The translations under genes and the position numbers were made by a program. A DNA stretch of 38,651 bases, taken from assembly GCA_015228785.1 (NCBI GenBank), contig JADGCU010000013.1, positions 1-38,651 on the forward strand, written 5' to 3'. Shown here in pieces: positions 2,711 through 38,644 of the stretch. The notes under the pieces were generated by a model. The model worked only from the letters and a program-made list of their open reading frames with translations, ran no database searches and was not told where the DNA came from. Numbering within the stretch: position 1 is the stretch's first letter; each line of letters starts with the position of its first letter. Origin of the DNA: Candidatus Omnitrophota bacterium (GTDB taxonomy: Bacteria; Omnitrophota; Gorgyraeia; Zapsychrales; Fredricksoniimonadaceae).

Positions 2711-2756
2711 CCGTCCTGTGTCTTGTGTTCGGCGACCTTGTGCCTTGTGCCTGCTT
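2711..2756. repeat. Degenerate heptameric tandem repeat (TGTCCTG/TGTCTTG type)
   Basis: Read in 7-base steps the stretch contains CCTGTGT, CTTGTGT, one diverged unit, then CCTTGTG, CCTTGTG and CCTGCTT. The reverse complement has CAGG/CAAG-NNN heptads like those found in other gaps of this window (13963-14025, 17876-17903, 37772-37806). A short open frame crosses it but has no ribosome-binding site or protein-like composition, so the DNA appears to be non-coding. Confidence 0.55.
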
Positions 2757-37191: not shown

Positions 37192-37770
37192 ATGAAGAAA
37201 ATCATTCTTGCCTCTGCTTCGGTCCAAAGAGGAAATTTAATGAAACTTATGAAGATTCCTTTTGTCGTTAAGAAGTCAAAGGTCGAAGAGATCTCAAAGA
37301 TTACGACCAACGTGGCAGATCTTGTTAAAAAGAATGCTTTTATCAAGGCTTTGGACATCGCGGAAGAAACTAAGGTTGATGCCTTGGTGATTGGCGCTGA
37401 TACTGTTGTTTATGCCAAGGGTAAGCTCGTGTTAAAACCGCGGAATTTGCGAGAGGCTAAGAAGAATCTTAAGGAGTTAATGTCCGAGCCGCATTGGGTA
37501 TATACTGGGGTTGCTGTGATCGATGTCAGGAGCAAAGAGGCGCTCGTCGACTACGAGAAGACCAAGGTTTTTATGACCGTTCTGTCTGATGATGAGATCG
37601 ATCGTTATCATAAGGAAGTTCCGCCTATGGATAAGGCCGGTGGATTTGATATTGAGGGTAGGGGTGGGCTTTTTATTCCGCGGATCGAGGGTGATTACTC
37701 GAATGTTGTGGGACTTCCTTTGGCGAAGTTGTTTCAGATGCTGAAGAAGTTTGGTATCCATGCCTTATAA
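37192..37770 (+). CDS. maf: Maf-family nucleotide pyrophosphatase
   Basis: Maf proteins hydrolyse non-canonical or selected nucleoside triphosphates. The 192-residue protein has ILASASVQRGNLM (in place of the common SASPRR), VIGADTVV, HWVYTGVAVID and DKAGGFDIEGRGG. The Ser-Val-Gln in the first motif departs from the usual Pro-Arg, which may affect nucleotide choice. It is followed directly by the M48 gene, whose alternative starts lie inside the maf end. Confidence 0.92.
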   Translation: MKKIILASASVQRGNLMKLMKIPFVVKKSKVEEISKITTNVADLVKKNAFIKALDIAEETKVDALVIGADTVVYAKGKLVLKPRNLREAKKNLKELMSEPHWVYTGVAVIDVRSKEALVDYEKTKVFMTVLSDDEIDRYHKEVPPMDKAGGFDIEGRGGLFIPRIEGDYSNVVGLPLAKLFQMLKKFGIHAL

Positions 37771-37771
37771 G

Positions 37772-37806
37772 GACACAGGACATAGGACACAGGACATAAG
37801 ACAAAG
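37772..37806. repeat. Five tandem 7-bp units at the start of the M48 gene
   Basis: GACACAG, GACATAG, GACACAG, GACATAA and GACAAAG follow without gaps; stepping by two bases the unit is CAGGACA. Just downstream, CCTGTGT and TTGTGTT (37850-37864) resemble the complement of the unit and could pair with the array. This is the clearest array of the family in the window. Confidence 0.75.
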
Positions 37807-37831
37807 GAAAGCGTGGGCGTTTCGAAAGCTC

Positions 37832-38644
37832 ATGGTTCTTTTTGTGCCCTGTGTTTTGTGTTTTTTGCCTTTCTTGTCTGGCTGTGGCGGCCTTATGACT
37901 AATTTTAATACCGCGACCAATGAACAGGAAACGAGTGTTTATTCAACGGATCAGGAAGTGCAGATGGGTGCGGCTGTTGCCCTTCAAGTCGAGAAGGAAT
38001 TAAAGATTATTGATGATCCGATAATGAATGAACGTGTAGAGCGGATTACTCAAAAGATCGCGGATGTCTGTGATCGTAAGGATATCGTTTATATTGGCAA
38101 GGTGATCGAGGAGAAAGAGGTAGAGGGTTCGCCGATTGTTAATGCCATGTCGCTTCCGGGCGGGTATATTTATATGTTCAAGGGGTTGATGGAATATATT
38201 AAAGATGATGATGAGCTTGCTGCTGTCATTGCTCATGAGATTGCGCATGTGACAGCCCGGCATAGCATCAAGCGTCTTCAGGCGTCCTATGCGAGCTTGG
38301 CCGTTGTCCTGGCCTCTATCCCGGCAAGCCCTGCGCTTGCGGGAGGGCTCAATGCCACCTTTCAGAGCATGTTTTTAAAATATTCTCAGGAGGATGAGAT
38401 CCAGGCGGATAATCTGGGCATAAAATATATGAAACTTGCTGGGTATGATGCTCAGGGCATGATCAAGATGCTGGAGGCCCTTCAGGAGTATGACCGCAAG
38501 CAGCCGATTCGGCCTAAGTATTATGGACGAACGCATCCTTATGTTCATGAGCGGATTGCGTCAGCGAATCGTACGATCACTGGCGACCTGTCATTTCGCG
38601 ATTGGGTACGCTTGACGGGAGAGAGGGAAGATTATAAAAAATGA
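37832..38644 (+). CDS. M48-family metallopeptidase, lipoprotein (LoiP/YggG-like)
   Basis: Membrane-tethered zinc protease probably acting on periplasmic or outer-membrane proteins. From ATG 37832 the 270 residues start with a hydrophobic segment and lipobox LSGC (lipidated Cys18). The zinc site is HEIAH (H135, E136, H139) with the third ligand in EIQAD (E189). Length and layout match LoiP/YggG; BepA is longer and has TPR repeats. The start is uncertain: this ATG lacks the usual basic residues before the hydrophobic core, whereas in-frame ATGs at 37751 or 37760 add RQRKAWAFRK but read through the 7-bp repeat and overlap maf. The stop is seven bases before the window end, so the gene is complete. 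Confidence 0.9.
   Translation: MVLFVPCVLCFLPFLSGCGGLMTNFNTATNEQETSVYSTDQEVQMGAAVALQVEKELKIIDDPIMNERVERITQKIADVCDRKDIVYIGKVIEEKEVEGSPIVNAMSLPGGYIYMFKGLMEYIKDDDELAAVIAHEIAHVTARHSIKRLQASYASLAVVLASIPASPALAGGLNATFQSMFLKYSQEDEIQADNLGIKYMKLAGYDAQGMIKMLEALQEYDRKQPIRPKYYGRTHPYVHERIASANRTITGDLSFRDWVRLTGEREDYKK

Follow-up and report, generated by a model that had tools for sequence, protein, structure and literature searches.

The heptamer array between the maf gene and the M48 peptidase gene analysed here is one half of a palindrome. With a probability of roughly two in three (0.68), we take it to be the 5' arm of an imperfect palindromic element with a 7-bp period, of a type widespread in Omnitrophota, that lies across the maf-M48 boundary and within the translated N-terminus of the M48 protein. 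The window, that is, the whole stretch of DNA analysed (38,651 nt), belongs to an Omnitrophota genome of 2.02 Mb in 123 contigs, 82% complete, which is denoted G000 below; related genomes and loci are denoted by similar labels. The features of the window are the following.

37192-37770, forward strand: maf, encoding a Maf-like protein (PF02545, E = 7.2e-50)
37751-38644, forward strand: M48 peptidase lipoprotein ORF in its longest form, with a TTG start (PF01435, Peptidase_M48, E = 1.5e-30)
37760-37762, forward strand: proposed ATG start of M48, 8 nt before the maf TAA, with a product beginning MPYKDTGHRTQDIRQRKAWAFRKLMVLFVPCVLCFLPFLSGC (from the open frame and from the starts of relatives at the maf stop)
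37760-37885, forward strand: proposed signal peptide of the M48 lipoprotein, reaching as far as the lipobox Cys (from reading the sequence)
37770-37808, forward strand: imperfect heptamer array of AGGACAC/AGGACAT units (TRF, pattern scan and lag-7 scan)
37769-37801, forward strand: purine-rich 5' arm of the palindrome, beginning inside the maf stop codon (stem alignment and RNA fold)
37802-37839, forward strand: loop of the palindrome, containing ATG 37832 (sequence, stem alignment and fold)
37840-37872, forward strand: pyrimidine-rich 3' arm, in codons of the putative h-region of the M48 signal peptide (FVPCVLCFLPF; stem alignment and fold)
2712-2752, reverse strand: CACA-type family member that apparently has a single arm (pattern matches), upstream of an ORF that we take, from reading alone, to be lysyl-tRNA synthetase-like

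The array starts on the final base of the TAA that ends maf and consists, in order, of the units AGGACAC, AGGACAT, AGGACAC, AGGACAT and AAGACAA. TRF assigns it a period of 7 with 5.6 copies and 81% matches, or 92% when the period is taken as 14. The pattern AGGACANAGGACA, allowing up to two mismatches, has 10 matches in the window, five of them in the array, against a mean of 1.83 in shuffled sequences, none of which (0/100) contains 10 or more. The top lag-7 score of the window, 23/28, is located at 37769, and 100 Markov shuffles evaluated at lags 4-15 peak at 21. The array is beyond chance, by a margin that is not huge when the array is considered on its own. The original prediction had placed a five-unit array at this position, and the location of the array and its gene context are as described there; it is not, however, a stand-alone simple repeat, since it pairs with a second arm at 37840-37872 that had been overlooked, as had the numerous elements of similar kind elsewhere in the genome. 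Arm-to-arm pairing comprises 22 Watson-Crick pairs, eight G.T, two A.C and one transversion, and the whole element is about 104 nt long. With a 201-base query, no second place is found in its own genome, and a search of the window against Rfam gives no match at the gathering score.

The M48 ORF matches BepA best among NCBIfam models, at 115 bits, which is under the 570-bit cut-off. The long form of its product begins MPYKDTGHRTQDIRQRK..., in which LSGC is presumably the lipobox under the familiar lipobox rule, with its Cys codon at 37883-37885. Only two starts keep the basic n-region, TTG 37751 and ATG 37760, both within maf as originally pointed out, and from either of them no stop interrupts the M48 frame across the palindrome. 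The sole ATG start between the array and the lipobox, ATG 37832, gives a product that reads as uncharged at its beginning (MVLFVPCVLCFLPFLSGC), and the nearest purine-rich sequence, AAAGGA, ends about 23 nt upstream of it; the earlier description of this repeat-free start as lacking both a charge and a well-spaced ribosome-binding site is accurate. By analogy with relatives in which M48 starts at the maf stop, ATG 37760 is the likely start; ATG 37832 is a possible start, less likely than ATG 37760.

The explanation we propose is as follows. Elements of this type lie mostly between co-directional genes, and many of them begin where the gene upstream has its stop codon. At the maf-M48 boundary, translation of M48 from ATG 37760 would be coupled to the termination of maf and would proceed through both arms, such that the purine-rich 5' arm, together with the loop, encodes the charged n-region and the pyrimidine-rich 3' arm encodes the hydrophobic h-region, followed by LSGC. 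The element may have originated at the DNA level by local slippage combined with arm-to-arm template switching (or copying).

Evidence for read-through comes from the same junction in relatives. We considered 52 maf/M48 loci, of which 30 came from the search for relatives and 22 were named loci (L096-L117, the best-scoring 22 of 80). After exclusion of 11 loci without maf, six without an M48 anchor and three duplicates, 32 usable junctions are left, in which maf and M48 share one open frame in 19 cases and are separate genes in 13. A palindrome that scores above all 30 of its own shuffles is present at seven of the 13 separate junctions and at none of the 19 fused ones, to be read against a background density of elements that ranges from a few per hundred genes up to the value for G031, 33 per 186 genes. 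The seven are those of G000, G001 (a congener and the closest relative), G025, G031, G029, G020 and L097. Five are 7-periodic, with words that differ among G000/G025, G001, G031 and G029, and the palindromes of G020 and L097 are not heptamer arrays. At the latter locus, from another Omnitrophota MAG, ten-base inverted repeats of the AACGCGAATT type occupy the position of the M48 leader (L097:2850-2960).

At element-free junctions, the M48 start is at or near the maf stop, with an ATGA overlap in G005 and G014. Among the junctions with a palindrome, the ATG of M48 overlaps the maf stop in G031, G020 and L097 and abuts it in G029, and in these four M48 can be read without a stop through the whole palindrome to the lipobox (for example, MRREKIEDRRWRTEDGRFYFPFSIFHFLFSAFCLITLTGC in G031). 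No usable M48 start can be read downstream of the palindrome in G031 or G029; the sole usable start is at the maf stop, and thus both arms must be translated. The original claim that the repeat is translated is in this way supported by the relatives; in the window species itself read-through is not forced, because ATG 37832 is viable by hydrophobicity alone. Counting all seven junctions, six have an M48 frame that crosses the element without a stop, and the corresponding background for intergenic elements is 40 of 111 frames (36%). The exception is G001, where a stop codon in the M48 frame lies inside the outer 5' arm and M48 would start within the element. In the fused maf-M48 frames (19/32; L039, L041, L044, L045, L047, L049, L050, L052, L054, L055, L057, L059 and others), the lipobox is in mid-frame, and MLKKFGV, the conserved C-terminus of Maf, might also serve as the n-region of M48.

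Elements of this type are dispersed through the window's own genome and those of relatives. The pattern GRCACARGRCACARG, with at most one mismatch, occurs at 25 places in G000 compared with five for the reversed control, and heptamer hairpins are predicted at most of the loci viewed. An unbiased scan for tandem arrays was carried out on sampled stretches of G000 (415 kb), G025 (400 kb), G031 (183 kb) and G029 (167 kb). Arrays of period 7 number two, 10, 21 and four in these samples, respectively; in addition, there are two arrays of period 14 in G000 and 15 of period 8 in G025, and other periods (9, 11, 12, 18 or 21) are represented by single arrays only. Markov shuffles yield no tandem arrays at the stringent setting. 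Most of the arrays in the sampled relatives form palindromes whose 5' arm is rich in purines, and many begin at the upstream stop codon. Unit words vary widely among loci (e.g., AGGACAC, GGCACTAA, GGAGAAC, AAGTCGT, CAGTGGT and CGACTAT). A view in which all elements form a single family built on one CACA word is rejected because other genomes use many different words. Several loci have unusual layouts: in G025, 14 near-perfect GGCACTAA octamers face inverted octamers in an array that looks recently expanded (L222:5167-5360), and a longer unit, composed of heptamers and an A-rich spacer, is itself present four times (L219:18170-18410); in G000, a one-armed heptamer array lies in frame within an ORF of 1799 codons (L212:1551, contig C105).

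For a description of element anatomy, we used a first set of 40 stems with scores of at least 11, located between co-directional genes of G000, G001 and G025, and an independent set of 38 stems from G031 and G029. The 5' arm is purine-rich in 39/40 and 35/38 stems, and it starts between -16 and +35 nt from the upstream stop codon in 36/40 and 26/38, respectively. At least six of 17 elements in G000 are found at the identical gene junction in G001; this is a lower bound, since the G001 stretches were picked for holding the pattern. On ORF reading, the shared junctions are rplU-obgE, leuA-like-aroE, TPR-miaA, pyrC-LOG, argG-argH and maf-M48. A clear hairpin is present in both genomes at rplU-obgE, leuA-aroE and maf-M48; the miaA hairpin is weak in G001, the pyrC-LOG element is one-armed in G000, and argG-argH is compared over a partial slice of G001. 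As judged from these junctions, the position of the element is inherited between the two genomes.

The composition of the arms has a direct consequence for what they encode. For 98 elements of five genomes, each translated in six frames, hydrophobicity is greater for the 3' arm than for the 5' arm in 513 of 588 tests, with mean GRAVY values of +0.99 and -1.41, respectively. Almost regardless of frame, the codons of a purine-rich arm specify charged residues and those of its T-rich complement specify hydrophobic residues, so that an element located where a gene begins would be a signal peptide ready for use. Elements can also lie in frame within genes. In G031, an ATP synthase alpha-like protein (L258:8546-10075) carries a clean in-frame insertion of 21 residues that is encoded by a CAGTGTT heptad palindrome and is absent from all five aligned relatives, and in G025 a heptad element is in frame inside an exosortase gene. 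Three consecutive pseudopilin-type genes of G031 (GspG and two prepilin-like genes; L258:15485-17236) each have their own heptad palindrome at the leader. Their leaders look element-built, and so do those of an LptE lipoprotein, of a DUF192 lipoprotein, of a second M48 protein, of a GH123-like lipoprotein (G025) and of Lnt (G001); within this group, initiation inside the 3' arm is possible in some cases. We suggest, tentatively and at distinctly less than even odds, that leader peptides in Omnitrophota recurrently derive from purine-first heptad palindromes, and that such palindromes were the material from which the leaders of lipoproteins, prepilins and proteases (M48 and its paralogue, LptE, DUF192, GH123 and three T2SS-type pseudopilins) were made or remade on repeated occasions. 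Note that translation together with the downstream gene is not a general property of the elements: the downstream frame is open in 16 of 37, compared with 24 of 74 for the other frames.

The alternative that survives best is that the palindromes are neutral by-products, in which slippage and template switching make functionless heptad palindromes wherever they are tolerated, the M48 leader being a place that tolerates one. Each genome has many unrelated unit words, every one of them palindromic; G.T and A.C mismatches are equally common in G031; and the elements have no association with Y1_Tnp (PF01797), which is absent from G001 and G025, two of the genomes richest in the CACA pattern. Against a wholly neutral origin stand the purine-first bias of the arms and the location of the elements at stop codons, which point to a degree of constraint. 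We consider this explanation quite credible, falling somewhat short of an even chance; it is compatible with read-through into M48 and hence only partly a rival of the translated-leader reading.

A second alternative is that the palindrome acts only as mRNA structure (for stability, attenuation or blocking of the start in the loop), with M48 translated from 37832 and the hairpin intergenic. The predicted fold is strong: the RNA of 37766-37880 has a minimum free energy of -45.1 kcal/mol (z = -5.78), a value equalled by none of 200 shuffles, and a hairpin is retained at some orthologous junctions despite sequence change. In the stems of G000, G001 and G025, G.U pairs also exceed A.C pairs (140 vs 59; observed share 0.704, expected 0.581, p = 4e-4 against arm composition). 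However, this excess does not reach significance when G000 is taken by itself (p = 0.10), is explained in part by the GT-rich composition of the sense strand and is not replicated in the independent set from G031 and G029 (73 vs 64, p = 0.73), and because of this failure selection at the RNA level is treated as unproven. Moreover, 37832 has no ribosome site near it and would leave the n-region without charge, the 3' arm is part of the coding sequence, and in G031 and G029 both arms are necessarily translated. The explanation by RNA structure alone is accordingly improbable, at about one chance in a handful. Far less probable still is a phase-variable switch, as originally proposed, in which a changing number of units brings M48 into and out of the reading frame of an upstream start: the arithmetic holds, as 7 is not a multiple of 3 (one added unit leads to a stop after 10 codons and one lost unit to a stop after 43, whereas loss of three keeps the frame), and near-perfect arrays of G025, among them the one of 14 units, suggest that slippage occurs in the phylum, but the units at maf-M48 are imperfect, the internal start 37832 would bypass the array and be unaffected by it, and the same palindrome type and unit vocabulary are common to many loci without a switching layout.

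The translated palindromic element can be compared with several known repeat systems. REP/BIME palindromes, which are associated with RAYT transposases, are intergenic, occur inside operons and are not known to have heptad periodicity. The Omnitrophota elements resemble them in being palindromes between genes, and differ in their heptad periodicity and in their lack of Y1_Tnp association. An origin from RAYT/REP is rejected: in a search of 37 genomes for Y1_Tnp, there are no matches in G001 and G025 and one in G000, and its presence is unrelated to how abundant the CACA pattern is. In two genomes, G009 (C102:641-715 and 1598-1777) and G012 (C13:165218-165858), a CACA-type array nevertheless has a Y1_Tnp match at a distance of no more than about 1 kb.

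The GGGAATC heptamers of Xanthomonas, the nearest of the known systems, are intergenic and form about 70 convergent inverted pairs per genome that are capable of stem-loop formation; their positions are mostly common to relatives, while their length and sequence vary (PMC4692102). The maf-M48 tandem heptamers similarly have a nearby inverted partner, as indicated by TRF, stem alignment and fold. Unlike the single G-quadruplex-type word of Xanthomonas, the Omnitrophota elements use many words and periods of 7 and 8, mostly lack G-runs and are often translated; in the AGGACAC/AGGACAT units of maf-M48, G runs do not exceed two, which does not agree with a GGGAATC-type G-quadruplex. Rickettsia palindromic elements (RPE), the nearest system as regards coding use, are in-frame insertions in protein genes that form families of about 150 bp with conserved peptides (PMC10969869). 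A clear in-frame palindrome is that of the atpA-like gene in G031; in the window, the M48 frame is open from 37760, the putative start, and the element there may be read in frame. In contrast to RPE, which share sequence and peptide, the Omnitrophota elements are 7/8-periodic arrays without conserved sequence and with only putative mobility, and the maf-M48 element is shorter and has locus-specific unit words. The TAACTGA repeats of Beggiatoaceae and cyanobacteria are dispersed heptamers located mostly just upstream of starts, but they are direct repeats of a single word, with only one inverted set reported (PMC4679880). The four-fold heptanucleotide elements of Geobacter metallireducens are tandem and occur at 49 places within and between genes; unlike the Omnitrophota palindromes, they are described as a single direct-repeat family with a proposed regulatory role (PMC2700814). 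PARCELs, too, are coding repeats of palindromic type; their motif has 25 residues (PMC2996958). By their defining features, the maf-M48 element is none of GGGAATC, RPE or REP/RAYT, yet it works like GGGAATC pairs and RPE. In the open-licence PMC literature, we found no title that describes such repeats in Omnitrophota, Omnitrophica or OP3, or heptanucleotide signal peptides.

Imperfect heptamer arrays located where genes begin should not automatically be taken for contingency loci. The marked 7/8-bp periodicity, realised with many words per genome, is a separate puzzle that may be mutational or functional. If the translated-leader reading is true, non-coding repeats that spread for reasons of their own would supply working secretion signals, and the birth of signal peptides would become directly testable.
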